A stretch of DNA of 64,000 bases from Neckera pumila (Eukaryota; Streptophyta; Bryopsida; Hypnales; Neckeraceae), in the NCBI GenBank assembly GCA_963969595.1, contig OZ018409.1, positions 29,153,282 to 29,217,281 of the forward strand, read 5' to 3'. Shown in pieces: positions 785-60,364 of this stretch. A program made the position numbers and the translations under genes. Numbering within the stretch: position 1 is the first letter of the stretch; each line of letters begins with the position of its first letter. The notes beneath the pieces are model-generated. The model ran no database searches. It saw nothing but the letters and a program-made list of their open reading frames with translations, and was not told where the DNA came from.

Positions 785-1514
785 CTAACCCCTAATGACC
801 CAAGCGACCATTTTTTCTGAGTTGCTTGTTCTTAAATTTTGAGTTTTTTGAAAATAAAATTTATTTCTAAAAATAGACTGCAATACAAATCCAATGGCGG
901 TAGGGTCATCAAATTCCAAGTTAAACTTTGCCTTGTGGAATTCTGCAAAGTTAAGTGGTGCAATGTAGTTTATAGCTCATTTTTTTTGTGTTCGGTTTGG
1001 GCATGGACTAAAAAGTCAACCAACCAATGTGCTTCTTGTCCACCTCATGAAAATTAGATCCAAGGAGTTCAAGGAGAAGACAAGTGTCCCATTCTTTTTT
1101 CTCTTGCAAACACTACTCAAATTTCACTGACCACCGTACATTGCAAACTCCACTATAAATTGTAAAATTCTTGGAATGTTATGAAATTTTACATGTATAG
1201 TTTCAACTCTCTTATCTTTCAATGAGCACAAAAAAGGCATCCTTTCAAATATTCTCATAAAGATATGCTCCTTCAAAGTGCACTACCTTGTATTTCCATC
1301 AATCTAAAGAAAAACTTCAGAATTATATATCTCCTAAATCATGCGGTCAAATAATCTGAAATTTTTTGAGGTGCTTAATTTCAACTTTAACTTTAAGATC
1401 CAACAATTACATTCTATCCAATCTCAAGAAAAAAATGAGCAAAAAAATTGCTCAAGTTGTTGGCAATTTTGGCCCATTTTGAAGAACACCCCCCTTTGGT
1501 CATTTAGGGGCTAA
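785..1514. mobile_element. CCCCTAAAGG-family element with CTAA duplication
   Basis: The left end reads CTAA|CCCCTAATGACC and the right end GGTCATTTAGGGG|CTAA. The ends are inverted repeats and CTAA is repeated directly on both sides. The 730-bp body encodes no transposase. The ends match the TTAA-flanked family common in this window, so this looks like a copy that used a variant target tetranucleotide. The CTAAATGA-type terminus is shared with the member at 16288-17028. Confidence 0.7.
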
Positions 1515-1660
1515 TATAAATACTTGTATAAATAGTTGTATAAAACATTGGCCTAAAGTACTCTCACACTACAACCAAAGGTCAAGAGGTCGTCAATTTC
1601 CACCAAATCACATTGTAAGAAACTAAAAGTTCATGATGACCTCTCAAACTTTGGCCACAG

Positions 1661-2045
1661 TACGGGTAATCACAGCATGTTCAGAGCCATGGTGAACAAT
1701 GTAGAGTGTTGGGTGGAACCAATGAAGAGTCATGTTTTTTGAACATGCCGTGACCACCCTCTTTGGTCGACTGGTCAGAACAATGAATAATCGATAATGG
1801 AGCCACTCGTTGGTTAGATGGCGGTAATTGGCGGGACTCCCGGAGTCAATAAAGAGGAAGCAAAAGAATATTCTTAGCGTGCTATTGCTTGTTCACCTTC
1901 AACCTTCACCTCCGCATGTGGATGTTAAGCGTGAACAAACAATGTCACGCTAAGAATATTCCGACCAAAGAAAGCCAACCCTATGCCGCCACGGCATGAA
2001 TTTTCATTGTTCACCGCGGCTCTGAACATGCCGTGACTACCCCTA
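1661..2045. mobile_element. Foldback MITE with ~40-bp terminal inverted repeats
   Basis: The left arm (1663-1701) and right arm (2005-2043) are near-perfect inverted repeats that share TGTTCAGAGCC and GGTGAACAATG. TA flanks both ends (1661-1662 and 2044-2045). A second inverted pair lies inside: AGAATATTCTTAGCGTG near 1865 against its complement near 1945-1961. An extra copy of the right terminus, GAACATGCCGTGACCACCC, lies near 1741, which suggests internal rearrangement or nesting. There is no coding capacity. It sits about 0.6 kb upstream of the synthetase start codon and might form its promoter boundary. Confidence 0.8.
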
Positions 2046-2474
2046 GTGTTTGGTATGGATATTGGTATGGATATTGGAACACTTCAGGTTAAATGAACCA
2101 CATTCTAAGATTTTCCAATACGAATATCCCATACCATTCAACTCTCTGTCGTGCTCCGTCGTCGTCTTGCTCCGTCGACTTTGCACCTTGTCGCCCACCG
2201 TCCGCAAACCTAAGCTCCAAGTTTCGTCATCGCCATACTTGGATTGTGCCTACTCTTGAGTGTGTGAGCCAGCCTTTTGTGTCACCAGGTGACGATCCAC
2301 CGCGTGTCTCGTTCTTCGATTTGTGTTTCATCAACTTCAGTTTTTTCTGCTGTGAGTTGGATCTTGCGGCTTTCAGGGTCGTTGAATTGGTGCTGGCATC
2401 GTTTCTAGGAATTGAGACTGCAGGAGTGGAGTGGGTGCTGTTTTCTCAGGAATTGTGGTTTTCGTGATTGGAAT

Positions 2475-2500
2475 TTTTAGGGTTTTAGGGTTTAGGGGTT
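2475..2500 (+). promoter_or_regulatory. telo-box cluster upstream of the synthetase gene
   Basis: Three adjacent TTTAGGG-like units occur about 170-200 bp before the start codon. In plants, AAACCCTA telo-boxes are characteristic of promoters and leaders of translation-apparatus genes, which fits the downstream product. The transcription start is not visible, so this could be promoter, 5' UTR or a leader intron. Confidence 0.5.
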
Positions 2501-7549: not shown

Positions 7550-8450
7550 CGTCCTCAATTTACTTGGTTGTTTCGGCGCCGAAATTCGTCGCAATATTGT
7601 AGGCGGACTTTTTTCCTAAATATTGCTTATGTAGAATATTTGCACCTGGATATTGCAGAGTTCCGTGTATTTGGACTCGGAACCTCCAGGCAGAGGTTTA
7701 GGTCGTTATGTAAACGACTCAACGTAGTAATTGGATTCATGCGGTGTCGAAATTGTTTGAAACGTCGGTACTTGTAACTGAGCAAGTTTCTGAGGGCATG
7801 GTGGTCCTTTCCCAATGACTTTGACTTGTATTTTTTAACGACAAGGACGACTTTCGAGCGTTGGGAACTGCGAGTGATACGCCCACACTAGACTTTTAGC
7901 TCATAGCAGGAACGTATGCCGCTGTTGTACTGTATATTGGCAATATTTCTGGATGTTTGCTTGATTGCAATATTTGATGGGTTTGATTTATACAAATTTT
8001 AAGTATCGACATTGGACAATGTCATGATATACTAAATTGGTTATGGAAGTCAACTTTTGCCCATGCAGGTACATTTTCATGTGTAAATCTCGAGTGTAGA
8101 ACATTTTGAATATCTGAGAAATCATCTGTACACTCTTAACCCCTCAGCACTCTGACATCCAAAATCTGGACAATGAACATAGAGGTTCCAAGGGCTATTT
8201 CTACCACAGAATTTCTCATTTGTCCAAACCAACGCTCGACTTAATTGAAAATCACACTATCTATATGATGAATCTAATAAAATTGAGGTAAATCATATAT
8301 ATTTATAAAGATACAAACAAAAATATGCAAAAATTCAAGAAAGGATTCAAGCATTCAAGGAAATAACTCCCTTAACCCCATAAGGACGTTGGGGACTAGA
8401 GTGGTCTAATGGATGACTTCACTAATAATTGTACAGAAAGAGAATGCACC
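7550..8450. other. 3' flank of synthetase gene and intergenic DNA
   Basis: The first few hundred bases are probably 3' UTR and terminator, but no clear polyadenylation signal can be fixed. A TTAACCCCATAAGGAC motif near 8375 resembles one end of the TTAA-flanked element family, without a clear partner end. No other feature is supported. Confidence 0.4.
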
Positions 8451-8936
8451 TAAGGTAACTACACCTAAAATCGCACAAATAAGCTCTATGGCATAACCAA
8501 TATGTTTTAGAAAATGAACAACAATTTTTGCACATTGGTGAAGGACTATGTATCAAAATGCAAGTAGTTCCATAGTTTTTGGATCCATTGTGAATTAGTT
8601 ATAAATTTTCAAAGATGGAAGGTGTAAGGTGCTAAAAGTGTCATATAGGTGATGCCAACATCCATTTGATGCAATGAAGAAATGACACGATTAGTATCAA
8701 AACACATCATATAGAAGAAGTTAAAACAACAAAAAGTGTACCAAAAATTGACCGCTTACAAGGTTGCCACCTCTATAGTACTATAAATAGAATTACACAC
8801 TATTCAAAATGACCCCCAATTCCACCGAAGACTTGTCTTTGTATGTGCACCATTTTGCATATCCTCCCGATTCAGTTTCCCTTCAAAAATAGGAGTTGAT
8901 TTTGAGAAATGGTTCATTTTAGGTGTAGTTACCTTA
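8451..8936. mobile_element. MITE with TA|AGGT ends
   Basis: A perfect 21-bp inverted repeat bounds the element (8451-8471 and 8916-8936), including the duplicated TA. The core ends read AGGTAACTACACC and GGTGTAGTTACCT. The 482-bp interior has no coding capacity. It belongs with five other AGGT-ended MITEs in this window. Confidence 0.85.
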
Positions 8937-12952: not shown

Positions 12953-13324
12953 TTAGAGCATCCCACCCGTCTTGCATATTGGATGACTTGTAGCCACCGG
13001 CTTGCAAAATTGCCCCACCCGTCTTGCATAATGGATGAACTTGTCAAGAGGCCAAGCCAAAAGTTTTCGGTGGCTTCCAAAACCGGGCTCTTTTGCAAGC
13101 CAAAAGGTGGCTTGCAAACCGGCTTGCAAACCGCATGAGACAAGCGCCTTTTCCACTTTCCCAAAAAACAAGGACATGATCCGTGAATGTGGACGTAGCT
13201 CATTGAATGGTGATGGCTTCTTAAGAGGCCGTGGGTGGGGCGACCCTTCTTCCCTAACTTGCAAAATGGACTGCCAGGCTTGCACCTTGGCTTACATTTT
13301 GCAAGCCGGGTGGTGATGCTCTTA
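12953..13324. mobile_element. PIF/Harbinger-like MITE, TTA-flanked GAGCATC ends
   Basis: The element (12956-13321, 366 bp) begins GAGCATCCCACCC and ends GGGTGGTGATGCTC, with TTA directly repeated on both sides. A 3-bp TTA target plus GAGCATC termini fits the PIF/Harbinger (Tourist-like) type. The interior has several CTTGCA/TGCAAG motifs in both orientations, which create long but meaningless open frames. A relative lies at 58224-58638. Confidence 0.82.
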
Positions 13325-16064: not shown

Positions 16065-17053
16065 TACACTATATAGTGAAATTAGGCTGCTCTATATTAA
16101 TTTCTTGATATTGGACACTATATTTATATGTACAGTTATTGTGAAAAGATGCAGTAATGAAGGAACCATGTATGTTGTATAGGTTGGTGCATTGTTCATG
16201 GCTTGGAGTTTAGAAAATTGCATGCGCCTCCATGTGGACAAGCAATGAGTCATGAGCTAACTTCTTTCAATGAAAGCAACCTAGTTGTTAACCCCTAAAT
16301 GATGGACCCATGACCATTGATTTCAAACCGTACTGCCTATCACTCAATTTGCTACCATTTTGCCACTAGATATGTATGAATTTTTTATTTTTTTTCAGAG
16401 ATGAAAGTACATGTCTTCTTTACTATAGAAAAAACTTAGATATTTTTGTGGAAAATTAATTTTTTTAAGAATTTTTTAAAAAAAAGTGAAGAAAAATTAT
16501 ATTAAATAGAAAAGTATTTTAAAAAATCTGAAAATTTCACCATAAGTGTATATCACGATGACAAACATCATGGTGTAAACTCAATTTCCGTGTCATTCTA
16601 TAATTAGAAGATAATAGACATTGAAAATACACCCAATGTTCAAATTGCAGTAAAATATGCAATATTAGGAATTTTTTCAAAATTCAAATTGGAGTAGAAA
16701 CTAGAGTAGATGAGCTTCATTTTGTTAGTTTGACTCAAACTCAAAAAATATCATTTTTGTGGAGAAATTTCAGATTTAAAGCAAGGAGCAACAACTTCCC
16801 AAAATACTCTAAAATAGCCTATTTTGTGATCCGTTTTTTTTAATAGCTTCTCATTTCCATGAAGTCAAAAATTGGAAAGAGTACAAACTCAATTGGATAC
16901 TCTTTATAACTCAATGTGAAAGGTCAACAAGGAAAAGGAAGATGAAAAAATGCTTTTGAACTCCTCTTAGCTCCACAATATTGTCATCGGAACGCCACGG
17001 AATGGCGTTCACTGCGTTCCAGGGTTAAGGCAACTTAATTTTACCATTTTGTA
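16065..17053. mobile_element. CACAAAATAGTG-type MITE split by a TTAA element
   Basis: This copy lies in the opposite orientation to those at 23.2-23.8 kb. It starts near 16067 (CACTATATAGTGAAATTAGG). It runs parallel to the 23583-23835 copy, sharing CATGCGCCTCCATGTGGACA and CATGAGCTAACTTCT, as far as the TTGTTAA at 16285-16291. It resumes at 17029 with GGCAACTTAATTTTACCA and ends CATTTTG|TA. The gap is filled exactly by the TTAA-flanked element at 16288-17028. Confidence 0.8.
16288..17028. mobile_element. TTAA-flanked element (subfamily D) nested in a MITE
   Basis: TTAA at 16288-16291 precedes CCCCTAAATGATGG, and TTAA at 17025-17028 follows CGTTCCAGGG. Removing it restores the MITE reading GTTG-TTAA-GGCAAC, where the related copy has GTTG-TTGA-GGCAAC. 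This is direct evidence for insertion with a 4-bp duplication. An internal stretch starting near 16678 (AAATTCAAATTGGAGTAG) is related to one near 60230 in the member at 59561-60364. A small palindrome, GAACGCCA/TGGCGTTC, lies near the right end. No coding capacity. Confidence 0.8.
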
Positions 17054-18658: not shown

Positions 18659-19588
18659 TTAACCCCTAAAGGACCATTGTCCCTTCGGGGGACAAATGGG
18701 ATTTCGGGCAGGTACCTATGGGCTGAATTTTTGTCGTAATTTTTTGAAACGTTTTTTGAAGATAGAAAAACTGCTATGCTTTGTGGTAGTATAATTTTTT
18801 TTCAATCGGTGCCCAGAAAAAAAAGTTATACCCAAATAAGCTCAAAACAGGGGACATGGGGCAGCAAAAAAAAATTCAATTTTCAATTTTCAATTTTTTT
18901 TTCTTTTTTTTTTCTTATAGATTATATTTTTGTCTATTTGGAAAGCTTTGATTCATTTGATTTGGATTTGTTATGAGAAAGTTATGGACAATCTTGTTTT
19001 TCGAGCACTTAGAGCATCTTCCTGAAAAAATAACTTGTAGGATTCATTTCTAAATGCAATTCTTGCAATTTTTCAAAAAAAAAAGTTCCACAAGGTTTAG
19101 TTCTTTTGCTAGAACAATCTTACCATTGAGATTAGTGCTTTTTAATTCCATATAAAAGATATTAATATTTTAGATTTTCCTTCTATCTTGTACCTACTTC
19201 TACTTAACAATTTTTTTAGTAATAAAAATTAAGTTTTTTTGTATATATTTTTTTTCCCTAGACTCTCAACTCAATTCTCCACTATAAAGATTAAAAGCTC
19301 AAAACTCTGTAGTGCAAGACATTTAACCTAAAAATGTTCAAAGTCATAAAATCTAGTCCCGCAATGTGCTGAAATCTTGTTTTTTTCACTTTAAATGCAA
19401 ATATCTTGTAATTTGTGCGGTCAAAAATTCTGAAATTTTTTCCACACATTGTTGTACTAGTTGGATATAAGATCCTACGGTTATATGTGACAAAAAAACA
19501 AATTTCAATTCTTTTTACTCTTTGCTATAGAAATGGCAGTTTTGAGTGTTTTTTGGCAGAAAAATGGCCTTGGTCCTTTAGGGGTTAA
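18659..19588. mobile_element. TTAA-flanked element, type B, full length 930 bp
   Basis: The ends read TTAA|CCCCTAAAGGACC and GGTCCTTTAGGGG|TTAA, an excellent inverted repeat. Internal landmarks shared with other type B members are GTCCCTTCGGGGGACAAA next to the left end and AAATGGCAGTTTTGAGTG near the right end. It shares its right TTAA with the short element that follows. No transposase is encoded. Confidence 0.9.
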
Positions 19589-19815
19589 CCCTTAAAAGAC
19601 GACGGGGTGACCCTGGAAATCATCCTTTTTCATTATCGTGTGACATCATTTACATTAAAAAATCTAAAAATATCTATTGGAAGTCAAGCTACTGTACAAG
19701 ATCTCCCCTTTTTACAACAAATTGGGAGGATGAATAGGCGCACTTCTATCCTATGCAATTTGATATCCTGTCATCCATCGGCCACAAAATGGCCTCCTCG
19801 TCGTTTAAGGATTAA
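19585..19815. mobile_element. Short 231-bp TTAA-flanked element
   Basis: TTAA|CCCTTAAAAGACGACG and CGTCGTTTAAGGA|TTAA form an imperfect inverted repeat. The left TTAA is also the right flank of the preceding element, as expected when a TTAA-targeting element uses an existing duplication. The interior is unlike the 930-bp members. Confidence 0.75.
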
Positions 19816-24024: not shown

Positions 24025-24957
24025 TTATCCCCTAAAGGACCAAACATTGATTTTTGGCAACATAGCGATTTTGGGCAGCTCACTACAAATGGAAATTTAT
24101 TTATGTTTCTTTGGAAATTTCACACAATGTGTGCCCGAGGAGTAGCTTTAAGGCCCAACAATTTTTAAAACTTTTGACTACATAGTTAAAAAGTTATTGG
24201 ATGATATGTCATTTTCAACGGTCAACGGGCAGCTCAAAAAAATTCTGAAAAATCACTTTTTAAAAAAGTAAAAATTTAAAATTGGTTCTTTAGATTTATA
24301 TATACACATAAAACGTTGAATTATTCCATTTTGATTTATGAGATAAAAATTATGAGGTGTTCTACTTTGCGGGCGGTTATGGATTCCCTACTCTAAAATA
24401 AACTTAAAAGTCCTTTATTTCATTCAATTTTTAGTAATTTTTGAAAAAAGTAAAAGCATAGGATGTATATTGTTTACTGTAACATTACTACTGTTGGGAT
24501 TGACATTTTTTTATTCCATAATTAAATTCTTAACAATTTCATGTTTTGAATCATTCTCTACTTTTTTCTACAACCTATTTTTTTCCTATATGTTGTACAA
24601 TTCCAAATGATCTGAATTTTTTCAAGCATGTAGCCAACTGGCTTTGATGAGTGAATCCAAGGAGTAACCACCATTTTGGACATTTTTTCATTTAAATGTG
24701 ACCTTATGAAGTGCAGTTGCCCGGGTTTCCAAAGGGCCAAAGAAAGGTTTTTTGTCAATTCAAATGCTAATATCTTGCAATCTACATGGTGGAAAATTCT
24801 GAATTTTTTTCTACATATTTTCAAACAAGTTTACTACAAGATCCTACGGTTACATTTGTCCAAAAAAGTTTTTTTTCTGGAATTTGATACTTGTACTAGA
24901 AATGACAATTTTGGAGTGCTTTTGGTGAAAACATAGTCTCCGACCTTTAGGGGTTAT
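24025..24957. mobile_element. Type A element, TTAT-flanked, 933 bp
   Basis: TTAT|CCCCTAAAGGACCAAA and CGACCTTTAGGGG|TTAT. The direct repeat is TTAT on both sides, so this copy apparently used a variant target. Internal landmarks of type A are GATTTTGGGCAG near the left end, CAAATGCTAATATCTTGCAA, GATCCTACGGTTACAT, and GAAAACATAGTC at the right end. No transposase. Confidence 0.88.
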
Positions 24958-25889: not shown

Positions 25890-26782
25890 TTAACCCCTAA
25901 AAGCCCAAGTGTCCCTGGGGGGGTGTTTTGGTACTTTGGGCAAGCTCATGTGACCTCAATTTTTCACATGATTTTTTGAAACTTTTTTGGGAGATAGGAA
26001 ATCACATTAGCTTCGTGGGAAGATAAATTTCATCAAATTCCGACTTATCCTCCAAAAGTTATGAGCATTTGAAAGTTAATTTCAGTTCGGGAATCTGCTG
26101 CCCCTCAGGAATCTGACTTTGACTCCCAAAGGGGCAGCAGAGGTGGCAAGAGAGGAGAGGTGGCAAGAGGTGGCAAGAGAGGCTATTGTTGTGCCTATTG
26201 GGAGGTCACATGAGGCTTTAGGAGCTTGTAAATGTTAGAGATTTTGACATTTTTCAAAAAAAAAACTTCCTACTTCTAAAACACAAGTGCATCTTTCAAT
26301 CCGTTGTTCAGATTTCCTAAATCAAAAAATGTGTGATGGGAATTTTTTTTGGAAAATGGCCTATTGTATTGTCATTTCTTGGGACATAGTGGCAAACTTT
26401 TAATTTTTTTGATTATTGGGATTGTCTTGGATTGCCTTGAAAATTGGCATGCACATGCCTAACATGTTTCTCCATAAGAAAAAATTATAATTTGGAGGTC
26501 TGTAGTGGAAAAAAATTCAGCAAATGGCGGTCAAAGGCATCTGAAATTTTCGGGCACAGTGGAAAAAAAAAAAAAAAAAGACTTTGAATGCAAATATCTC
26601 CCAATCTTTATGGTCAAACCTCACAAAATTTTTACCACATGTTCTCACACAAGTTAACTACAAGATCCAATGATTACATTCCCAAAAAAATCAATTTTTC
26701 AAACATTTTTGATGAATGCTTTAGAAATGGCAGTTTTGGATGTTTTATGAGATAGAAAAGGCCTTGGGCTCTTAGGGGTTAA
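25890..26782. mobile_element. TTAA-flanked element, type B, 893 bp
   Basis: TTAA|CCCCTAAAAGCCC and GGGCTCTTAGGGG|TTAA are matching inverted ends. The interior has the GGTGTTTTGG/GGGCAAGCTC variant of the type B left arm and AAATGGCAGTTTTGGATG near the right. It contains a short GAGAGG/GGTGGCAAGAG tandem duplication near 26140-26185. Non-coding. Confidence 0.85.
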
Positions 26783-27610: not shown

Positions 27611-29599
27611 TTTACCTCTAAAGTCCCAAGGTCATTTTTTTGTCATAAACCACAAAAAAATGCTATTTTTGTTACATTCCTCCAAGAAATTAGGAATTTT
27701 TTTTTTAGAATCTAACGGTAGAATATTATACTTCACTTGTCTTAGATCATTGGTAAAATTTTTGTGAAGTTTGACTTTATAGATTGAAAGATATTAGCAT
27801 TCAAAGTTAGAAAATAAATATTTTTAAACATTGGCCTATAATTTTAGATGACTTTGACCACCATTTGTGGAAAAAATTGGAAGACATTAATGTTCAAAGT
27901 GGAAAAAATGGCTTTTTAAACGTTGGCTTGCAATTTCAGATGACTTTGACCACCATTTGTAGAAAGATTGGAAGATTTTAGCATTCAAAGTTGGAAAAAG
28001 TCTTTTTAAACGTTGGCTTGTAAGTTCAGGTGACCACCATTTGTGGAAAAAATTTGCACTATGGACTTTGAATTAAAAAAAAATTATTTAAAAAATTGAG
28101 TTGAAATTCTAGAAAAAAAATTCAAAAAACATGCACCTGATTTTCATTCTTTAGAAAACTATTAAATAGAAGAGGTCCAATATTGAACAAGAAATTGAAT
28201 CATTAATAGCTCTAAGATGGTGAGATTGTTTCAAAAAAAAATACTTAACCGTGTAAAACAGTGTTTTTTAGAAAATTGTGAAAATTGCATTCAAAAATGA
28301 ATCCTATATATTATTTTTTCAAAAAGATGCTTAAATTGATCGAAAAACAAGATTGCCATAACTTTCTCATTAGCTGTTTAAATGAATTGAACCAAAGCTT
28401 CAAATGTATAAAAAAACATATAGGAAAAATATTTAAGAAAAATATTTTGACTTCTTAACCCTTAAAGTCCAAGGCCATTTTTTTGTAAAACTGACTCAAA
28501 ACTGCCAGTTTTGTTGCATTCATCTAAGAAAAGAGAAATAACAATTTTTTAGAATCCAACCGTAGGATCTTGTACTTAACTTATCTAAGACCATGTGGTA
28601 AGAATTTCATAGAGTTTGACCGTACAGATTAGATGACATAAGCATTCAAAGTTACAAAAAAATATTTTTTTGAACACTGGCTTGTAATTTTAGATGACTT
28701 TGACCACCATTTGTAAAAAAATTGCACTGCAGATTTTGAATTTAATTTATTTTAAGTTGAATAAATGTATTGAAAATCTAAGAATTAAAATAAAATAAAA
28801 ATGCACTTAATTTTCATTCTTTAAAAAATTATTAAATAGAAGTGAATCCAAGATTGATAGAAAAACTAAATCATATATAGCTCTAAAATGGGATTAAAAC
28901 ATTATAATCCTTATAGTGAGATTGATTTAGCAAGCAAACTTGGCCTTGCCAAAAAATGTTTTTTGAAAAGTTGTGAAAATCGCATTCAGAAATGAATTCT
29001 ACGAGTTATTTTTTCAAAAACATACTCTAATTGCCCAAAAATTAAGATTGTCCATAACGTTCACATAACAAATCCAAATGGAATGAATCAAATCTTTTCA
29101 TATAGATAAAATTACAATCTATGAGAAGAAAAAAAAATTTAAATTTAAAAAAATAAATTGTGAGAAGATTTCTACCCGCCGCACCGAAAAAAAGGGACCT
29201 TTTGTGCCATAACTTTTGCTACCGGGCACCGATTGAAATAGAAATTATATTTTTATAAAGCAAATGTGTTTTTCTATCTTCACAACAATTTTCAAAAAAC
29301 AATAATGAATATTTAGGCCGTAGTAGCTTGCCCGAAACCCATTTTGTCCCCCGAGGGAACAACGGAACTTTAGGGGTTAAAATTTTTTTGTTTTGCTCGC
29401 CCACCTACACTTGTTTTTAGCTCATTGAAAAGCAACATTTTCTCCCAAGTACTAGTTGATATAAAGAATTTATCCACAAAAAGCTAGTGTGTTTTTCTAG
29501 CATCACAAAAAATTTGAAACAATCACAATGATTATTGAGACTGTTCAAGCCTATCCAAAGTCCCATTCTTTGTCCCCTCTAGAGACAATGGAACTTTAA
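27611..29599. mobile_element. Type B element interrupted by another type B element
   Basis: It starts TTTACCTCTAAAGTCCCAAGG. The body continues to 28454, is interrupted by the TTAA element at 28455-29380, and resumes with AATTTTTTTGTTTTGCTCGCC, the same position reached in the 40978-41909 member (GATTTTTTTTGGATTGCTCGCC). It ends CAATGGAACT at the TTAA where the next element begins. The left part has a ~92-bp unit repeated three times (27782-28050), each with GACCACCATTTGT. Confidence 0.75.
28455..29380. mobile_element. TTAA-flanked element, type B, 926 bp, nested
   Basis: TTAA|CCCTTAAAGTCCAAGG and CGGAACTTTAGGGG|TTAA. It lies inside another type B element. The pre-insertion site can be read from the 40978-41909 copy: TTGACTTTCTATGATTTT against TTGACTTC-TTAA-AATTTT. 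Non-coding. Confidence 0.88.
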
Positions 29600-30527
29600 C
29601 CCCTAAAGGTTAGAGACTATGTTTTCACCAAAAAGAATCCAAAACCGCCATTTCTAGTACAAGTACCAAATTTTAGAAAAAAAACATTTTTGAACACATG
29701 TAACCGTAGGATCTTGTAGTAAACTTGTTGAGATTATGTAGAAAAAATTTCAGAATTTTCCACCTTGTAGATTGCAAGATATTAGCATTTGAATTGACAA
29801 AAAACATTTTTTGGGCTTTGCAAAAAGCAAGGCAGCTGCACTTCACAAGGTCACATTTAAATGAAAAAATGTCCAAATTAGTGGTTACTCCTTGGATTCA
29901 ATCTTCAAATCAAGTTGGCTACATGCTTGGAAATTTGAAGATCATTTGAAATTGTACAACATATAGGAAAAAAATAGGTTGTAGAAAGAAGTAGAGAATG
30001 ATTCAAAATACGAAATTGTTAAGATTTTAATTATGGAATTGGAAAATGTCAATCCCAACAGTAGTAATGTTGCAATAAACAATATACATCCTATGCTTTT
30101 ATTTTTTTCAAAAAATATTAATAGTTGAGTTAAATAAAGGACTTCAAAGTTTACTTTAGAGTAGGGAATCCATAACTGCTTGCAAACTAAAACACCTCAT
30201 AATTTTTGTCTCACAAATCAAAATGGAATAATTCAAAGCATTACACGTATATATAAATCTAAAGAACCAATTTCAAATTTTTGTTTTTTTTAAAAGTGAT
30301 TTTTTAGAAAAGAATTGAACTGCCCGCCAATCATTGAAAATGACATATCATCCAATAACTTTTTAACTATGTAATCAAAAGTTTTGAAAATTGTTGGGCC
30401 TTAAAGCTACTTCTTGGATACACAATGTGTGAAATTTTCAAAGAAAGAAATTAAAATTTCCATTTGTAGTAAGCTGCCCAAAACTGCTATGTTGCCAAAA
30501 AACGCCGTTTGGTCCTTTAAGGATTAA
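29596..30527. mobile_element. TTAA-flanked element, type A, 932 bp (reverse)
   Basis: TTAA|CCCCTAAAGGTTAGAGAC and GGTCCTTTAAGGA|TTAA. In reverse orientation it aligns through its whole length with 24025-24957. It abuts the type B element on its left and uses a TTAA at that element's end. Non-coding. Confidence 0.88.
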
Positions 30528-32320: not shown

Positions 32321-33637
32321 TTAACCCCTAAAGTTCTATAACTATGTTTCCATTGAAAACGCTCAAAAATTGTCATTTTTAGAACATTTACCAAATTTTC
32401 AAAAAAAACTTTTTTGACACATCTAATCGTAGGATCTTGTAGTATGTTGACTTGGAAATAAGTGGTAAAATTTTTAGAATTTACCACCGCGTGGATTGCA
32501 AGATATAAGCATTCAAATTCATTAAAACCTTTTTTTTGGCCTTGCGAAAAATAGGGCAGCTGCACTTCACAACCTCACTTTTCTATGAAAAAATGTCCAA
32601 AATGGTGGTGCTTCTTTGGATATTGTTTCCTAGACAAGTTGGCTACATGCTTGAAAATTTTTTCATCATTTGGAATTATACAATATATAGGAAAAAAATA
32701 ATTAGTAGATAGTAGTATAGAATGATTCAAAATACTAAATTGTTAAAAATTAACTTATGGAATGGAAAAATGCCAATTCCAATGCAATGTTGAAATAAAC
32801 AATCGTCATTGTATAATTTTATTTTTTTCAAAAAGTCTTGAAAATTGAGTAAGATAAATGACTTCAACGTTTATTTTTTTTGGCAAGCAGAAGGCCCAAA
32901 AATTTTAGTTCAGCAAGCAAAAAAAAACCTTACAAAAATTTGAAATAAAATTTTAAGAGTTTCTTTCTCATAGATAATATTTTCATCCACATGGGCTTTT
33001 ATGCATACCATATGCATTTGTTACGAGAAAGTTCTGGACACTCTTGTTTTGTGGACTATTAAAGCATCTTCTTAAAAGAAAACTTGTAGGATTCATTTTT
33101 GAGTTGAATTTTCACAATAAAGAAAAAAAAGTTTCTCGAGGTTAAGATCTCTTGCTGGAACAATCTCGCCGTTGAGATTAGTGTATTTCAACTCCATCTT
33201 AGAGCTATTAAAGGTTTTGTTTTGCCTTCAATCTATAATCTATTTGTACTTACAAATTTCCAATGAGTGAAAACTTAAGTGTTTTTTTATTTTAGACTTT
33301 ATTTCAAGACTTTCAACTCAATTCTTCAAGATAAAAAATTAGAAATTCAAAATTAGTAGAGTAGCAAAAAATTTAAGTTAGGAAGGTTGAAAGCCAAAAA
33401 ATCTAGTTGAACAAGGTGCAAAAGAAAATGTTTTCTTTACTTTAAATGCAAATATCTTGCAATGTACGTAGTCAAAGTTTTGAAATTTCTTCCACGCATT
33501 ATTTTACTAGTCTAAATAATATCGTTGGGTAGATATGCGAAAAAACATTAATAATTTTTTTAAACTTTTGCAATAGAGATGGCAGTTTTGAGTGGTTCAA
33601 TTTTGATGGAAAAGGCCTTGGAACTTTAGGAATTAGT
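32321..33637. mobile_element. Chimeric type A / type B element, ~1.3 kb
   Basis: The left end TTAA|CCCCTAAAGTTC and the first ~550 bp follow type A in reverse (ATCGTAGGATCTTGTAGTA, GGCTACATGCTTGAAA). From about 32875 the sequence follows type B in reverse (TTACGAGAAAGTTCTGGACA, GAGATGGCAGTTTTGAGTG) and ends GGAACTTTAGGAATTAG. The right flank is decayed. It could be a recombinant or one element partly inserted into another. Confidence 0.65.
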
Positions 33638-34979: not shown

Positions 34980-36911
34980 TTACCCCCCTAAAGGACCAAA
35001 ATCTGTTTTTGAGCTACATAGCAATTTTGGGCAGGTATATGTGACTGAAGATTTGCATATTTTAAGCTGAAATTTTAGTAGAAGGTGGGGACAAGGGATA
35101 TCTTTCATGTGCACTAAATTTCATGACATTTGGAAATGTGAGTCAAAAGTTATGGCCTAATGTGTTACTTTTTTTGTAAATGGGCAGTCCGAACAAATAA
35201 AAAATAATCACTTTTTCAATAAACAAAAATTTGAAATTGGTTTTCTAGAGTTATATGTATGCGGAAAGCTTTAAATATTCTATTTTTACCAATGAGATGA
35301 AAGTTATGAAGAATTTAAGTTTGCGGGCAATTATGCATTTTCTACTCTTTTCTTCCTTTTATCCAAAAATGTTTTAAGGTATTTTATAAAAAGTATAACA
35401 AACATATCGTACAATAAACATTGAAGTCCTTTATCTTAATCAATTTTCAATATTTTTTGACAAAAATAAAATCATAGGATGCAGATTGTTTAATATAACA
35501 TTGCAACCATTGGGGTTGGCATTTTTCAATTCCATAATCAAATTCTTAACACTGATTTAGTATTTGAATCACAGTCTACTACTATTTATTTCTATACGTT
35601 GCACAATTCCAAATGATCTGAAAATTTTCAAGCATATAGCCAACTTGTCTAGGAAAAAGAATCCAAAGAAGCACCACCATTTTGGACATTTTTTCATAGA
35701 AAAGTGAGCTTGTGAAGTGAAGCTGCTCTGTTTTTCAAAGGGCCAAAAAATGATTTTGGTGAACCTGAATGCTCAGGGCCAGTTTATACTTGGCTTCGGG
35801 TCAGATGGAAGGCCAACCAGATTTGCCTTCAATCTGGCCCTCAATCCGGCCCCAATTCTTCCATCCAGCCCCGATTAATGTAAAGCCCTTGGGCCGGATT
35901 CTAGGGCTGGATTTCCAATTCTTCCATCCGGCCCCAACTAATGTAAACCCCTTGGGCCGGATTCTAGGGCCCAATTTTCAATTTTTGTGCTCTTGATTTT
36001 TTCAATGCTCAATTAAAAAAAATATGAAAAAATTAATGTTTTCTATTTTCTTCCTTTCTTTTCTATTTCAAGAAAAGAAGAAAATTTTATTTATTTATTT
36101 ATTATTTCTTCTTCCTATTTATTCTATTTCAAAAATAGAAAAAAGAATACCAAACTCAGCCAAATTTATTTTGTTTTAACCAAACTCAGCCAAATATTAA
36201 ACATCATTGGTAAACTTACTAGGTATTATCTAATTTATATTTTCATAATGCTTGCAAATTAACTTCATTTAAACCTCTAAACAATAACAAGATGATAATT
36301 TTACTTGCATTTATCCTTCACATATTACTGTATTGCATCTTGTTAACTTGAGCAAGCCTGGGGGATTGACAGTACTACAGCAGAGCCCCAAAATTTCAGC
36401 AATGCAAATGGAAGGAAGTTTCCTGAGAATACAATTACCAAGCATGTAATAAAAAAAGAAAAAGAAAAGACTTTGCATTAATAGTCGGTGGAGGTTTATA
36501 CAATCCAACGGAGGGGCTCCATCCGGCCCAAGATGAGAGTTCGGGCCACCCAAAACCTCGTCCCGATTGTTCCGTTGGGGCCGGATGGTTTGGCGCCAAA
36601 ACTATGCCACCTAAGGCGACACGTAGGATGAGTTGTAGTTCCGGCCAGCCCCAAGTATAAAGCTCTTGGACCGGATTTGGAGAAATTGAGTGATTCTATT
36701 GGTTCAAACTTAGAGAGTTCTGGCCGGCCTTCAATCTAGCCCCAAGTATAAACCAGCCCTCAGTATATCTTGCAATCCAAGAGGTGGAATTTCTGAACTT
36801 TTTACCATATGTTCTGAAGTCAGCATACTACAAGATGTTACAGTTACATGTGTCAAAAAAGTTTTTTTTTCAAAAAATTGGTAATTATAGTCATGGAATT
36901 TTAAAGGTTAA
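34980..36911. mobile_element. Type A element split by a 984-bp insertion
   Basis: The left end TTAC|CCCCCTAAAGGACC is decayed; the right end GGAATTTTAAAGG|TTAA likewise. The body aligns with other type A members (GCAATTTTGGGCAG, GAACCTGAATGC, then TATATCTTGCAATCC) once the GGGCCAG element at 35776-36759 is removed. Confidence 0.78.
35773..36762. mobile_element. GGGCCAGTTTATACTTGG-ended element, 984 bp
   Basis: GGGCCAGTTTATACTTGG (from 35776) and CCAAGTATAAACCAGCCC (to 36759) are inverted ends flanked by TCA on both sides. A 63-bp unit occurs twice in tandem (35852-35977), each with CCAATTCTTCCATCC and TTGGGCCGGATTCTAGGG, and related GGCCGGA motifs recur inverted near the right end. The insertion lies in the type A sequence GAATGC-TATATC. 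A 3-bp duplication would suit PIF/Harbinger, but superfamily is uncertain. Non-coding. Confidence 0.8.
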
Positions 36912-37211: not shown

Positions 37212-38019
37212 TTAAGCCCTAAATGCCTGAGGGACCATACTTGGTCGCTGTGAAATTTCAAGCTTGTTTTGGTGTGGGCAATTAAATTCCTTTGACCGTT
37301 TTAAAATTTGCTACAGCCAGTTTTGAAGGTTAATTTTTATTTTTCACTAAAAAAGGTAAATATTTGATTTTTGAGAGCTCCTCAAATGCATGGATGTCTC
37401 ATTGTAGAAGAGTAAAGCTTACAAATTTTATTTTATTTCCCGACTTTAAACAAAGCTTGTCAATTTCTCTTGAATAAAGATCTAAAAAATTGTATTTATT
37501 TGTTTGCTTTGTAAAAGGGCCCAATTGAAAGAATAAAGTGTTTTCATGATTTTCACCATTGAACATTTAAACATGCAAGTGTTAATTTGGAATTATTTGC
37601 AATTTCTACTTATTAAAAAAAATGCATTTCAACAATTGTAAGGTGGATTGTTTAATGAGTTTGGTAGCATTTCATGTGAAATTAAGTTTTTTGAAAGTGA
37701 ATTTAAGTGTGCTAACATGATTTGTAGTTGTTTGTGTCACCTCTAATTCCAAAAAAAATTTGTATGCAAATTTCTCAAACATTGTGGGAAGGGGCAGTAT
37801 ATTAAAAAAAAAATACATATTTTACTTGTTATAATTTCACAACTCCTATGTAATTTCACACTCAAAATTGGTGTGCGTACTAATAATCAAGCTCTTTAAA
37901 CATCTATAAGGTTAGATTATGAAAAAAAAAAAACTTGCTTCATTGGGGATAAATATAAGTTCATGCTCTTTTTTTATAGGAAAAACACACTTGGAAAGGC
38001 TTAGGCATTTAGGGGTTAA
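37212..38019. mobile_element. TTAA-flanked element, subfamily C, 808 bp
   Basis: TTAA|GCCCTAAATGCCTGAGG and GCTTAGGCATTTAGGGG|TTAA. The TAAATGCC terminus separates it from types A and B and links it to 58041-59080. The interior is not clearly related to types A or B. Non-coding. Confidence 0.78.
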
Positions 38020-40785: not shown

Positions 40786-42148
40786 GCAAGTAACTCTAGA
40801 TTAGAAAAATCTTTGAATGCAAGAAAATTTAGATAGGAAGAATCCTTGAATGCAAATAAATCTAGATTTGAAATACCCTTGAGTGCAAATAAATCCAGAT
40901 ATGAAGAATCCTTGAATACAAATAAACCTAGGTATGAAGATTCCTTGAATGCAAGTAAATTAAGATTTGAAGAATCCTTAACACCTAAAGGACCAAGGTG
41001 ATTTTCCTGTCAAAAACCACTCAAAACTGTCATTTTTGTTGCAAAGAGAAAATAGCTTTAAAAATTGTTTTTTTTTGCATATCCAACCATAAAATCTTAT
41101 ACTTGACTTGTATATGAATACGTGGAAGAAATTTCAGAAACTTTGACCATATAGATAGTAAGATATATGCATTTAAAGTGAAGAAAATAAGTTTTTTTGC
41201 ACCTTGCTTGACTAGATTTTTTGGCTTTGAATCTTTTTAGTTCAAATTTTTTGCACTACAAGTTTTGATTTTCTACTTATTTATGTTAAGTAGTTGAGTT
41301 GAGAATCTACCAAAAAAATTTAGGACAAAAAGCACCTAATTTTCACTCGTTAAAAAATTGTTAAGTAGAGGGGGGTTCAAGATTGAAAAAACTAAATTGT
41401 TAATAGCTTTTAGATGGAATTGAATCACAATAATCCCAATAGTAAGATTGTTCTAGCAAGAAAATCTAACCTTGTCTACCAATTTTTTTAAAATTCTAAA
41501 AATTGCATTCAAAAATGAGTTCTACAAGTTATTTTGTCAAGAAGATGCTTAGATTGCCCGAAAAACTAAGATTGTCCATAAGTTTCTCATTATTAGTCCA
41601 AATTGAATGAAATAAAGCTTCACATGTACTGTAGTTGAAAATATAATCTTTGAGAAAAAAATTTGAAAAAAAATTATTTTGACTTTCTATGATTTTTTTT
41701 GGATTGCTCGCCAAATGCCATTTTTGCTTATTGTGCCATAACTTTTTCTTCCGGGCATCAATTAAAATAAAAATTATATATTCACAAAGCTCTTGCAAAA
41801 ATACACAACTCCAAGAAATCCCAAAAAAAATCACTAAAAATTGAGACAGTCGGAACCTGCTCGGACCCAAATTGTCCTTCGAGGGGACAAACGGTCCTTT
41901 AGGGGTTAAATGCAAAATAAATCTAGATATAAGGAGTCCTTGAATGCAAATAAAGTAAGATTTGAAGAATCCTCAAATCCAAAATAAATCTAGATATGAG
42001 GAATCCTTGAATGCACATAAATCTAGATTTGAAGAATCCTTGAATGCAAATACACCAGATTTGAAGAATCCTTGTATGCAATAAATCTACTGTAGGTTTG
42101 AAGAATCCTTGTATGCAATAAATCTACTGTAGGTTTGAAGAATCCTTG
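40786..42148 (+). repeat. 33-bp minisatellite interrupted by a TTAA element
   Basis: Units of about 33 bp follow the pattern TTGAATGCAAATAAATC + TAGATTTGAAGAATCC. About five or six units lie at 40786-40977 and seven at 41906-42148. The break falls exactly at the TTGAA/TTAA position of a unit and is filled by the element at 40978-41909. Confidence 0.9.
40978..41909. mobile_element. TTAA-flanked element, type B, 932 bp, inside a minisatellite
   Basis: GAATCC-TTAA|CACCTAAAGGACC ... GGTCCTTTAGGGG|TTAA-ATGCAAA. Deleting the element plus one TTAA gives GAATCCTTAAATGCAAA, a regular minisatellite unit (usual form GAATCCTTGAATGCAAA). This is the cleanest pre-insertion site in the window. Type B landmarks: AAACCACTCAAAACTGTC at the left and TTGTCCTTCGAGGGGACAAA at the right. 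Non-coding. Confidence 0.93.
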
Positions 42149-50345: not shown

Positions 50346-51277
50346 TTAACCCCTAAAGGACCGGACTGTGTTTTTTGGACTTATAACTTTTTTGGGCAGG
50401 TGCATGTGAGCAGAGATTTGTACATTTTGGGCTGAAATTTTAATAGAATGTGGGGACGAGGAATATCTTTCATATGCTCAAATTTCATGACATTTGGAAA
50501 TACGAGTAAAAAGTTATTGCACAATATGTTGTTTATTTCTCAACTCGGGCAGTCCGGGCAGATCTGAAAAAAACACCTTTTTAAGAAATAAAAATTTGAA
50601 ATTTGTTCTTCAGATTTATATGTACTCAAAAAGCTTTGAATCATTGCATTTCAATAGTTGAGACAAAAGTTATGAGGCTTTTTAGTTTGCGGGCAGTTAT
50701 GGAATCCCTACACCAAAAAAAACTTTGAAGTCCTTTATTTTCCTGAAATTTCATTATTTTTGAAAAAAAATAATGCTATTGGATGTATATTGTTTATAAA
50801 AACAATTCAACCATTTGGATTGGAATTTTTTAATTTTGTAAATTAGTTATTAACAATTTAGTATTTTGAATCATTCTCTACTTCTTTCTACTTACTATTC
50901 TTTTCCTATATGTTGCACAACTCCAAATGATCTGAAAATTTTCATGTATGTAGCCAACTTGCCTTGAAGAATGAATCCAAAGAAGCACAACCATTTTGGA
51001 CATATTTTCATAATGATTTGACATTGTGAAGTGCAGCTGCCCGATTTTTCGCAGTGGTCAAAAAAAGATTTTTGCCACTTCAAATGCTAATATCTTGCAA
51101 TCTACATGGTGGAAATTTCTGAGATTTTTTCCACATATTCTCAAACTAGAGTACAACAAGATCCCACGGTTACATGTGTCAAAAAATGATATTTTTCAAA
51201 AATTTGGTACTTGGACTAGAAATGGCAGTTTTGGAGCATTTTTGGTGAGAACATAGTCAAGGAACTTTAGGGGTTAA
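50346..51277. mobile_element. TTAA-flanked element, type A, 932 bp
   Basis: TTAA|CCCCTAAAGGACC and GGAACTTTAGGGG|TTAA. Internal order matches 24025-24957: TTTTTGGGCAGG, GGGCAGTTATGGA, GATCTGAAAATTTTCA, CAAATGCTAATATCTTGC, CACGGTTACATGTGTC, GAGAACATAGTC. The length equals that of the 29596-30527 copy. Non-coding. Confidence 0.92.
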
Positions 51278-53272: not shown

Positions 53273-54297
53273 TTAACCCTTAAAAGACCAACATGCATTT
53301 TTTGGCTACGTAGAAATTTTGGGTAGGTATATGTGACTATAAATTTGCATATTCTTAGCCCAAATTTTAAATGAAGGTGGGGACAAGGTATATCTTTCAT
53401 ATGGAGATATGAATCAATTTCATGACCTTTGGAAATATGAGTCAAACATTAAGGCCTAATATGTTACTTTTTTCTGTAAACGGGGTAGTCCATGCAAATT
53501 AGCAAAAAATCACTTTTTTCAAATTCAAAAATTTGAAACTGGTCTTTAAGAGTTATATATACCTGAAAAGCTTTGAATCGTTCCATTTTGATCAATGAAT
53601 CAAAAGTTATGAGGAATTTTTGTTCGTGGGCATTTATAGATTCTCTACTCTAAAATACACTTTGAAATCCTTTGTCTTACTTAATTTTAAATATTTTTTG
53701 AAAAAAATAAAATTGTAGGCTGTAGATTATTTATTACAACATCGAAATCATTGGGATTGGCATTTTTGAGTTCCATAATTAATTTCTTAACAATTTAGTA
53801 TTTTAAATCATACTCTATTTCATTCAACTTACTATTTTTTCCTAGTGTTGTACAATTCCAAATGATCTGAAATTTTTCAAGTTTGTAGCCAATTTGTCTA
53901 GGAAATAGAATCCAAAGAAGAACCACCATTTTGGACATTTTTTCTTAGAAAGGTGAACTTGGGAAGTGCAGCTGCTTGTCTTTTGTAGGGCCAAAAAAAT
54001 GCAATTTCCATTGCTCGGTAGGTAAACCTAGGCAATTCAGAAAACTTTTTTAAAAATAAATTTAAGAAAACAATTTTAGTGAATTTGAATGCTTATATCT
54101 TGCAATCTATGTGGTGGAAATTTCTGAAATTTTTAACCACATGTTCTCAAGTCAGCATACTATAAGATCCTATGGTTATATATGTCAAAAAAAAAACTCA
54201 AAAATTTGGTACTTGTTCTAAAAATGACAATTTTTCTAGAAATGACAATTTTTGAGTGTTTTCAATGAAAACATAGTCATGGAATTCTAGGGGTTAA
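53273..54297. mobile_element. TTAA-flanked element, type A, 1025 bp
   Basis: TTAA|CCCTTAAAAGACC and GGAATTCTAGGGG|TTAA. Type A throughout, with an extra ~90 bp near 53990-54080 and a small duplication of the AAATGACAATTTTT motif near the right end. Non-coding. Confidence 0.87.
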
Positions 54298-57200: not shown

Positions 57201-58040
57201 AAAAATTACCCTCTATTTTGTGCCGCGTTTTTTAGTATTTCTTCACTCTCCTATTTAATTAAGGGCTTGTGATTGCAAATATGAATTCAAAATTTCTAAT
57301 TTTATCATATGTTGCAAATAAAAAATTCTAGTGTTTTAAATTGCGTAACAATGAAGAGAACTTCTTCAGATCTACAAAGTTATTGTCGGCATCATAGACC
57401 AATAGTTAAAGAAGAGTCTTCCTCTTAATGAAGTATTCTTTCTTTGTTAAGACAAACAACAAAGAATCTCGTTCCTTGCTATGATAGACAACAAAGACTC
57501 AAGCCAAGTCTTCCAATGTCATGTAGAAAAATAATCAGAGTTTTTGGAGTGCTTTTGACTATTCCAATTTCAACATTCCAATTTCAGCATATGTACAAAG
57601 TACCACCTAACTGGACAACTTACAACTTCCATCAATCTTGAAAACGGTGGCATTTTCTCAAAAGCTGTGCTATTTTGTCGATCTTATTTTCATAAGAAAG
57701 CTACATAAGCCTTTTTTTATTTCAATAATGGCAATCATCAAAATTACTTTACACGAAGGAAGAACTATGCTTGTTACAAGAACTAGTCAAGAAATCAAGA
57801 GCTACATCCCCTCCTTTAAGAGTTAATTAGGTCAATTTCTTTGAACCACTTTTTGAAGCCAAAATTATAAACTAAGTTTTTTTTAATTCCACCTTCAATT
57901 TCTACAAATGTAATGATTTGTTCTAATCCCTACTTCTTCTATAATAGTATTAATTAATTCAATGATTCTATTTTAAGTGTATGTCAAAATGAACCTTCCA
58001 ACTACAAGAAGGCAGCTTCGAGGCTTTTTCTAGAAACAAT
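54298..58040. other. AT-rich intergenic sequence with a 13-bp triplet repeat
   Basis: TTAGTACAAGTTC is repeated three times in perfect tandem at 55884-55922. No gene or bounded transposon is recognised over the remaining 3.7 kb; open frames near 56653-57202 have no recognisable domain. Confidence 0.4.
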
Positions 58041-59080
58041 TTAAATCCTAAACACCCAGGGCTATTTTTGAGCTTCTAGGAATTTGCTCTAAATTGAACA
58101 AAAAGCCAACATTTTGATAAGTTGTATCAAATTTTGTTGAATTGTAACCATACAATTCAAACTAGACATGTTAGAGATCAAATAGGAAAAAAAACACAAC
58201 AACATTACTTATGGATTGAAAGGTTAGAGCATCGCCAACGTGGGGCAGTCAAATCTCCACGGGAAACAACTCTTCCCGGGCATTGCCTGCAACCCAGGCA
58301 CTAACGGTCTCCGAGTCCCTGGTGTGGTCTAGCCAAAGTGGCCCGCTTGATTCATTTTTATTAAGGTTTCAATCAACTTCCAATTCAATTGTTCATCTGA
58401 CATGCTCTAAGGGCTTTGAATAGCAATTCCTTGCAACAAACATGGATAAGTCTTCAAAAAACTAACAACTCTGGGCCCTGTTGAAAATTGATCGTGCCCT
58501 GGAGCAAATTGAATCACCTTTGGCAAGCCTGATGCTTCGATATTTGTTCGCCATGCCCAAATAGAGGGATATTTGGCTTCTGGATCTAGCCTATGGCATC
58601 TTGGCTAGGGAGGCCAAGCCACGATGGCGATGCTCTTATAATGTTTGATTATAAGATGTTAAATCTATGAAAGTGATTTTAAGTCTCTTTTTGCATGTCA
58701 AATCTAAAAAGTTGGGCCCCCAAAAAATATGAGTTTAAAAGGCAAAACATATGTAATCCAATCAATTATTAGCTTCTCAAAATCTTCTCTACGATTTTTA
58801 AATGAATTTCTAATGTGATTTTTTCTCCAAGATATTACGGCTCATTTCTGGAAGTCTTCAACACTATGGAAAGTCAAGATACCAATGGACCCCCTTGCAT
58901 AAAATCTTGAATAGAAAAATCATAATCAATCATTTTCAAAATCAAATTTTTGATGCTGAAATTGCACTTCAAAAAAAACTTAAAAATACAAATTCCTAAA
59001 AATAGCACTTGATTACGTTTTATTTAACTTCAAAGTATTGTCAACAACAAAATTTGGTGCCTCGGGCATTTAGGAGTTAA
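58041..59080. mobile_element. TTAA-flanked element, subfamily C, carrying a nested MITE
   Basis: TTAA|ATCCTAAACACCCAGGG and CTCGGGCATTTAGGAG|TTAA; the right terminus matches the subfamily C member at 37212-38019. Minus the nested MITE the element is about 630 bp. Non-coding. Confidence 0.7.
58224..58638. mobile_element. PIF/Harbinger-like MITE, TTA-flanked GAGCATC ends
   Basis: GAGCATCGCCAACGTGG (from 58227) and CCACGATGGCGATGCTC (to 58635), with TTA on both sides; core 409 bp. It is clearly more GC-rich than its host element. Same family type as 12953-13324. Confidence 0.87.
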
Positions 59081-59560
59081 TTGAGTAAAGGCATAAGTTA
59101 GAGACTACTAAAGCAATTGTAATGCAAATGTTAATTCATCATGTCTTATGGTTAACATATTACCACTATGACTCATGTTAATTCTTCACTTATCTTATCT
59201 TGAACATGTACCAATTGGTATCCATATTAACTATTCTTATTTTAATATATACCACTATGGCTTGAATAACAACCAATACTCCATTCAGGAGGTGGTCAAT
59301 TTTAATGACCATTGTGTATCAACTTCAAAAATTTGTAACCAATTCTACAAAGGTCCAAAAAATATGAAATGACTTGTATTAGATGCCAATTCCATTTTTC
59401 TTCCTACAAAAATTTACTGAAAATTGTTCCAAGGAGTTTCGCTTCTCTAAAAAGGCAATCAGCTCTTAAATGGTCGGTTTAAGAACAGAATAATTTAAGA
59501 TCCAAAGAATATGAATATTTTCATGAGCCATAAATTTTAATAAACAATCACAAATATACT

Positions 59561-60364
59561 TTAACCCTTAAAAAATATTTTATGCCCAGGCTTAGTCAAA
59601 CTTCATTAAATTTCTACGTAAAAACACACAATTCAAAAATCAGATATTTTTAACATGTAGTAATATATGTCTAAAATTTAATATCATTTTTTCCTAATTA
59701 AAAATATCAAATTGATTTTATATTATTTTTTAGAAGAATTTCTATATAAAAATCATAGTATTTACAAAAATGCTTAAAGTAGTATGAAATTTTTGAGAAG
59801 AATGGAAATAATAGTTTCAAATGCCATGGAACAATTGGCTAGGGTGAACCGATCTCCTTGCTTGGTCTTTGCTTTTAACCCTCGAAAAAATGCTGAAATT
59901 TTTTATTTGCCATACATAATAAAATTTGCAAATTTTGAATTTATGTTTGCAATTAGAGGTCCTACATTAGCAAGAAAAGGTGTAGAAGATAAATCAATAA
60001 AAGACAAAATAGAAGGCCTTTTTTTAAATGTACCCCTAAAATGACTTACATAGAATGAGATGGAGGTGGATTCATCCCAGCCATATAATTGATATACTCC
60101 AAGATGTGCTTAGGGATCACACCAAGAGAAATTTAATACAAAAAAGTTCAAAATTGGTATACTTTAAACTTTCAAGATGCTAACTTTAATGTATCACAAA
60201 AATTACAATTTTAACAATTTAAAAAATTCAAATGGAGTAAAAAGTAGATTATTGGAGCTACATTTTTTTAGTCAAGCTTCAAACATTTAAAATCAAGAAC
60301 CATGTGAACAGTTAGGTTGTGACTTCTAAATTGTCCGTGGAGTGCAATGTCCTGTAAAGGTTAA
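59561..60364. mobile_element. TTAA-flanked element, subfamily D, 804 bp
   Basis: TTAA|CCCTTAAAAAATA and GTCCTGTAAAGG|TTAA are weak inverted ends. Assignment rests on an internal match with 16288-17028 (AAATTCAAATGGAGTA, then AGTCAAGCTTCAAAC against the earlier AGTTTGACTCAAAC region). An open frame at 59784-60044 lies inside and resembles no transposase. Confidence 0.6.

Follow-up and report, generated by a model that had tools for sequence, protein, structure and literature searches.

Analysis of the window, a 64,000-nucleotide stretch of Neckera pumila DNA, confirmed all 15 elements that a preliminary description had located there; together they cover 14,875 bp (23%) of the window. The six near-full-length copies described as 926 to 933 bp long measured 930, 933, 926, 932, 932, and 932 bp. 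By BLAST, ten of the 15 form a related group, which comprises elements of type A and type B. Type A elements lie at 24025..24957 (plus strand, 933 bp, TTAT/TTAT duplication) and, with TTAA/TTAA flanks, at 29596..30527 (minus strand), 50346..51277 (plus strand, 932 bp), and 53273..54297 (plus strand). A further type A element at 34980..36911 (plus strand) is interrupted by approximately 1 kb of other sequence at about 35757-36764 and is preceded by TTAC plus an extra C and followed by TTAA. Type B elements, all flanked by TTAA/TTAA, are positioned at 18659..19588 (plus strand, 930 bp), 25890..26782 (plus strand), 28455..29380 (minus strand), and 40978..41909 (minus strand, within a local tandem repeat). 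The element at 32321..33637 is a composite with a type A left part and a type B right part; it has TTAA on the left, and its right end is diverged, with an unmatched duplication.

The other five are likewise non-autonomous but revealed no substantial DNA match to the ten-member group. The single family originally proposed is in fact several related families. These five are located at 785..1514 (CTAA/CTAA duplication; a single 41-bp match to the group) and, with TTAA/TTAA flanks, at 16288..17028 (within a dispersed repeat), 37212..38019 and 58041..59080 (each a separate subfamily), and 59561..60364. The last has weak ends, and an alternative left end at 59875 fits too, which makes it the least certain member. 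The list was also incomplete: a 231-bp element with TTAA/TTAA flanks at 19585..19815, which shares a TTAA with its neighbor and matches positions 2362-2585 of locus L033 at 78%, had been overlooked.

The elements carry inverted ends of about 13 bp (CCCCTAAAGGACC and variants), and the subterminal sequences differ between the two ends. The shared end was originally given as CCCCTAAAGG(A/T)CC; among the 30 ends of the listed elements, only 6 have this exact form. TTAA/TTAA flanks, attributed to most elements, were found at 11 of the 15. With the element at 785-1514 (CTAA/CTAA) and that at 24025-24957 (TTAT/TTAT) included, 13 elements have equal 4-mers on the left and right, the two exceptions being 32321-33637 and 34980-36911. 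CTAA and TTAT are named as the predominant noncanonical piggyBac sites in the part of PMC6651600 consulted. For comparison with chance, converging near-matches to the end that lie 150 to 1500 bp apart and have equal 4-mers were counted in the window and in 30 first-order Markov sequences. The window contained 17 such pairs, whereas the Markov sequences averaged 0.77 and never exceeded 3. Thirteen of the pairs are listed elements, and two of the remaining four overlap listed ones as alternatives.

Genome-wide, the end CCCCTAAAGGWCC occurred 14,158 times, versus 14 occurrences of the reversed control, and an exact TTAA preceded 12,348 of these ends (87%). The preliminary description had considered that the ends might be internal to a larger repeat. 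The boundaries of the elements at 18659..19588 and 50346..51277 were therefore compared with those of 39 other best-scoring copies each (86 to 93% identical to the window copy for type B and 95 to 98% for type A). Homology ended no more than 12 bp from TTAA in 77 of these 78 best-scoring copies; in the single exception, it crosses the right flank, at which a different element starts in the window. A second outcome considered there, the lack of a 4-bp duplication, was not observed either, as the matched noncanonical 4-mers and empty sites indicate. Empty sites were found for two of the window elements and also for two autonomous copies that lie within short elements. For 16288..17028, the uninterrupted copies of the surrounding repeat lie at 23586-23762 and 23227-23329; for 40978..41909, other units of the tandem repeat supply the empty site. 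The empty copies for both mostly read TTGA, not TTAA. Matches resembling empty sites of 28455-29380 were discounted because the alignments were gapped and AT-rich. A caveat comes from the separate subfamily II (loci L032 and L040), in which homology runs beyond one TTAA into a 348-bp satellite. Since the right end of L032 adjoins this satellite, L032 was left out as proof, and L032 with its upstream DNA, considered as the source of a left end, was ambiguous.

A tblastn search of the window with 21 transposase frames revealed no transposase coding sequence at an E value of 1e-3. Longer relatives with the same ends and a DDE transposase, which the preliminary description had proposed to look for, were found elsewhere in the genome. 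Two 7.3-kb elements, L038 and L039, are 99.4% identical, have different flanks, and carry TTAACCCCTAAAGGACC at both ends; their inverted ends start with CCC, CCCCTAAAGGACC being present at both ends of each. L038 contains an open piggyBac transposase frame of 900 codons. Three 5.63-kb elements (L029, L030, and L031) are 99.2 to 99.4% identical, and other lineages of 5.4 to 5.6 kb bear related ends. Both ends of L029 and of L038 match window elements over about 40 to 430 bp, with only about 67 to 89% identity for the closest autonomous ends. Both ends of 18659..19588 match L038, the right part of 25890..26782 matches the last 429 bases of L029 (72%), and the 1461-1514 end of 785..1514 matches the right end of a possible 7.3-kb element in L034 over 55 bp (78%). 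For type A, the direct parent is missing, since none of the autonomous elements found has ends close to this type. In their middle, the short elements are mostly unmatched by L038 and therefore did not arise from it by simple internal deletion.

Taken together, the ends, duplications, and empty sites, the recent copies, and the full-length partners that have an open transposase frame identify the window elements, almost certainly, as non-autonomous (MITE-like) piggyBac transposons that exist in this moss alongside autonomous piggyBac lineages with the same or related ends. The partner transposase would bind the ends common to the long and short elements, excise the short ones, and reinsert them at TTAA, and this process may still be ongoing. 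A less probable reading, which nevertheless deserves weight, is that the burst is over and that the elements, although recent on an evolutionary scale, are now immobile relics. Many transposase copies do contain stops; among the full-length L038-type frames, of which four were found at 95 to 100% identity, three have one or two stops. The best-scoring type B copies are 86 to 93% identical to the window copy. Against extinction stand the long open frames in L029, L036, and L038, the 98.9 to 99.4% identity of full-length copies to each other, and the high identity of the best-scoring type A copies.

The assignment to piggyBac follows from the full-length elements flanked by TTAA and ending in CCCCTAAAGGACC, which encode a PF13843 transposase. 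At first look, transposase sequences were detected at 872 places in the genome; 116 of these were scored, and all exceeded the cut-off. PF13843 (DDE_Tnp_1_7), which we take to be the piggyBac family in line with the sequence match to solved piggyBac, scored 273 bits on the L029 protein. This enzyme matched piggyBac (6x67; E = 3e-35) and piggyBat (9c0f). The catalytic residues were located by alignment to 6x67, and the DDD triad was intact in all 20 aligned domains from this genome, five of which have one stop elsewhere in the domain. The predicted structure of the homolog P0001, used in place of the moss protein itself, aligned with 6x67 (E = 2e-29; TM score, 0.76 by target and 0.53 by query; rmsd, 7.8). 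Cys/His pairs, which could belong to the cysteine-rich C-terminal domain expected of piggyBac transposases, are visible at the C terminus of L029 and L038 and in a 60-row consensus, but a Pfam scan of L029 matched no zinc domain. One scan of viral contigs for the transposase found nothing.

A TTAA duplication also marks Kolobok, the other superfamily with this duplication, and would fit elements dependent on its different, THAP-bearing transposase. The preliminary description had allowed for such an origin, which now appears very improbable: the transposase encoded by complete elements with these ends is of the piggyBac type, and a Pfam scan of the L029 protein at E values up to 0.1 gave PF13843 only. 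Tc1/mariner or PIF/Harbinger MITEs (Stowaway- or Tourist-like), common types in plants whose TA or TWA duplication could be misread because TTAA includes TA, TTA, and TAA, can practically be dismissed, since all four TTAA bases precede 87% of the exact ends, TTAT and CTAA are duplicated as whole 4-mers, and the linked enzyme is piggyBac.

The piggyBac superfamily is best known from animals, is rarely described in plants, and provides a standard gene transfer tool of insect origin. The moss elements resemble piggyBac of Trichoplusia ni, whose ends likewise begin with CCC, and piggyBat in the DDD core, the TTAA target, and sequence; the predicted fold of P0001 also resembles both (6x67 and 9c0f). 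They differ in their host, which its phytochrome marks as a moss, and in the identity of 21 to 23% in the P0001 fold alignment. The moss elements are 5.4 to 7.3 kb long, with frames of 894 to 999 codons (stop to stop, the start codon not being fixed); for bee piggyBac, the portion of PMC10140906 consulted gives about 2.2 to 3.5 kb and about 580 amino acids. The superfamily and its presence in plants are already in print. A passage of the review PMC10004981 claims piggyBac MITEs for angiosperms, assigned by target site duplications and related features. The short moss elements are likewise non-autonomous, but partners with the same ends were identified for them, whereas that passage names no autonomous partner. 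It is fair to say, as the preliminary description did, that accounts of such elements from land plants are scarce, but the superfamily is already listed for land plants and angiosperm MITEs have been claimed. In PMC10619864, the one hit displayed proved to be the word "piggybacking." A search of open-licence literature, in which a pairing of piggyBac with a single moss name could be missed, turned up no account of a piggyBac family in a moss, of its amplification, or of recent autonomous moss copies.

These results show that the piggyBac superfamily is able to reach abundance in a land plant. There is somewhat less than an even chance that mosses possess a large and diverse piggyBac clade of their own. 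It would include several autonomous lineages whose elements are unusually long, one or more of these lineages being still mobile, and short derivatives in the thousands would make up a main part of the intergenic DNA; no earlier piggyBac system would have been found naturally mobile in a land plant. The open-frame, near-identical autonomous copies and their thousands of derivatives provide candidate plant-adapted transposases, and the L038-type enzyme and the 930-bp substrate form a defined pair for cross-mobilization testing. Metagenome and sequence-archive piggyBac proteins (e.g., P0001, P0002, and P0241) are 61 to 73% identical over 66 to 100% of the query; unlike for the moss elements, no transposon ends were seen for them. 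In a tree of 106 rows that did not include P0241, P0001, P0002, and the moss copies fell together into a single clade comprising 64 rows (SH-aLRT, 100).

Analysis of the window confirmed the 15 short non-autonomous elements of the preliminary description (785 to 60364), including six near-full-length copies of 926-933 bp. The flanking 4-mers were equal on both sides in 13 of the 15: TTAA in 11, in line with the TTAA flanks described for most elements, CTAA at 785-1514 and TTAT at 24025-24957. Among the 15, matched flanking 4-mers were not found at 32321-33637 and 34980-36911. The CTAA and TTAT pairs are informative because the full 4-mer is duplicated on both sides. A passage of PMC6651600, citing Li et al. 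2013, says that CTAA/TTAG and ATAA/TTAT predominate among noncanonical piggyBac sites; further noncanonical 4-mers appear among that paper's own results. End pairs with equal 4-mers numbered 17 in the window (13 being the listed elements), compared to a mean of 0.77 and a maximum of 3 in 30 simulated sequences.

The common ends proposed for these elements are related, not identical, since the exact 13-bp end was present at just 6 of the 30 ends. The proposal of a single family held for 10 elements, which formed one group by BLAST; the other five were separate. This group comprises type A (elements starting at 24025, 29596, 50346, 53273 and 34980), type B (18659, 25890, 28455 and 40978) and a composite element (32321). 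Partial copies of the 930-bp group lie beside full ones at 25101-25819 and 27611-28450, indicating clustered insertion. A second type of ~225-230 bp with related ends is located at 9001-9222 (a degenerate copy) and 19585-19815, and also flanks the transposase region of another stretch of the genome (L033) on both sides.

The assembly containing the window (339.5 Mb, 18 contigs) was searched for the ends. This search revealed 14,158 exact matches to CCCCTAAAGGWCC versus 14 for a reversed-pattern control, and exact TTAA preceded 12,348 of them (87%). The first 100 places listed included 13 pairs of converging neighbours spaced 747-942 bp apart (end to end, TTAAs included); random placement of those places gave an average of 1.0 pair and a maximum of 6 in 2,000. 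To locate the copy boundaries, element 18659-19588 (type B) with 100 bp on either side was used as a query, yielding 12,329 first-look candidates, of which the best 40, including the query itself, were scored. Both boundaries lay within 12 bp of TTAA in 38 of the 39 other copies. In the sole exception (C3:24442427), homology continued across the right flank, where another element starts in the window. When type A element 50346-51277 was tested likewise (9,636 first-look candidates genome-wide), 39/39 other scored copies stopped within 12 bp of the boundaries, with identities of 95-98%; copy identities are biased upward because the best candidates alone were scored. In each search, five short additional pieces lying next to scored copies were left out of the count. 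Based on the 14,158 exact ends, the genome would contain ~7,000-14,000 recognisable copies, corresponding at 0.93 kb each to ~2-4% of the assembly, to which diverged copies would add.

The proposed 4-bp duplication was borne out by empty sites and by the matched noncanonical 4-mers. One autonomous copy (in stretch L029) is nested within a type A element and another (L030) within a type B element. Uninterrupted copies of these host elements, e.g., L007 1782-2040 and L029 854-1159, have a single TTAA at the insertion point; others have diverged 4-mers there. The insertion site of element 40978-41909 is a local tandem repeat, that of 16288-17028 a dispersed one; the empty copies of both repeats have one 4-mer at the junction, mostly TTGA. 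The overlapping stretches L005 and L006 were not treated as independent in this comparison. Of the 21 copies tested, the remaining 17 had no empty site among the sequences compared, the hits for 28455-29380 being discounted.

A search of this genome with the piggyBac transposase family PF13843 gave 872 first-look candidates; the best 116 were scored, all above the curated cut-off, and 0/14 control genomes had a match. The longer transposase-encoding relative anticipated from the ends was found, and it is of the PF13843 piggyBac type. The elements at L038 1183-8495 (7,313 bp) and L039 1182-8481 (7,300 bp) share 99.4% identity across 7,314 aligned bases, have different flanks, and both carry TTAACCCCTAAAGGACC at start and end. 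L038 contains an open frame of 900 codons with the transposase. When this frame was searched against the genome, four full-length frames of its type at 95-100% were present among the best 51 scored of 1,289 first-look places; that of L038 has no stops, and the other three, including L039, have one or two. The elements in L029, L030 and L031 (5,630-5,634 bp, 99.2-99.4% identical) have the ends CCCCTAAAGTCCC. A third type of 5,371 bp, in L035 and L036, has the ends CCCCTTGRGGACT, a shared stretch 98.9% identical and, in L036, an open frame of 999 codons. A single copy at L034 57-7384 (7,328 bp) may represent a fourth type. Comparison of 20 transposase domains revealed about eight groups; identity is 75-78% among the L009, L012 and L017 types and 38-58% for the other groups. 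All 20 domains keep the three catalytic aspartates.

Both ends of the L038 and L029 elements have matches in window elements. In element coordinates, L038 1-204 and 7213-7313 match 18659-19588 at 69% and 80%, and L029 5206-5634 matches 25890-26782 at 72%; the L038 match is absent over most of the short elements' middle. The family combines shared ends, TTAA duplication, empty sites, a linked transposase and recent full-length copies. The transposase would bring the two ends of an element together, excise it and put it back at TTAA, and the short elements would be mobilised by enzymes from related lineages. Among the autonomous elements identified in the genome, none was recognised as the direct parent of type A.

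Several further observations concern the long elements. At ~1533, L035 and L036 each lie exactly at a TTAA bordering a different short element, and elements of this type may prefer such sites. Window 45326-45456 (131 bp) is 75% like bases 3322-3453 of the 7.3-kb candidate element in L034; tblastn found no transposase coding match to it. In copies of the separate subfamily II on different contigs (L032 6937-9000 and L040 7013-9000), the right TTAA end adjoins the same 348-bp satellite (~94-96% identical), which may therefore be part of the element or be amplified together with it.

Sequence matches of the L029 protein include piggyBac (6x67, E=3e-35) and piggyBat (9c0f). The predicted structure of a homolog, P0001 (mean pLDDT 82), likewise had its best fold matches in 6x67 and 9c0f, followed by Tn5 transposase. 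Protein database searches returned 152 homologs (120 listed) and 29 homologs, respectively; every listed protein that carried an organism name came from an animal, and none from a plant. A quick tree of 106 rows was built from 20 own sequences and 86 of the 120 listed matches; 34 with a profile coverage of 80% or less were left out. In this tree, the moss copies grouped with 44 proteins listed without organism name in a single clade (SH-aLRT 100) and were interleaved with them (at least six label changes). A phytochrome of the same assembly was nearest to mosses (Hedwigia, 91%; Ceratodon, 89%; Physcomitrium, 86%).

PiggyBac is an established superfamily. A 2015 survey places it among the superfamilies present in every taxonomic group studied, land plants included (PMC4438587), a 2023 paper reports it in plants (PMC10140906), a 2024 review lists it with plant class II superfamilies (PMC10794571), and another review names angiosperm piggyBac MITEs (PMC10004981). 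Passages of assembly papers give 1,230 copies (0.00% of the genome) in a fern (PMC6890710) and one copy of 75 bp in a grass (PMC8319324). In the passages cited here, no autonomous plant element with these ends is described. A moss case was not found among the best-ranked open-licence matches on plants and mosses, and a lower-ranked paper could exist. The elements therefore represent a new instance of a known superfamily, with a notable host, abundance, length and recency.

The window also contains exons of a phenylalanyl-tRNA synthetase beta gene on the plus strand (3188-6510), with PF17759 at 29 bits (6106-6510) and PF18262 below its own cut-off (3188-3529). An alpha/beta-hydrolase exon on the minus strand (10745-11281) is below Pfam cut-offs and methylesterase-like by eye.
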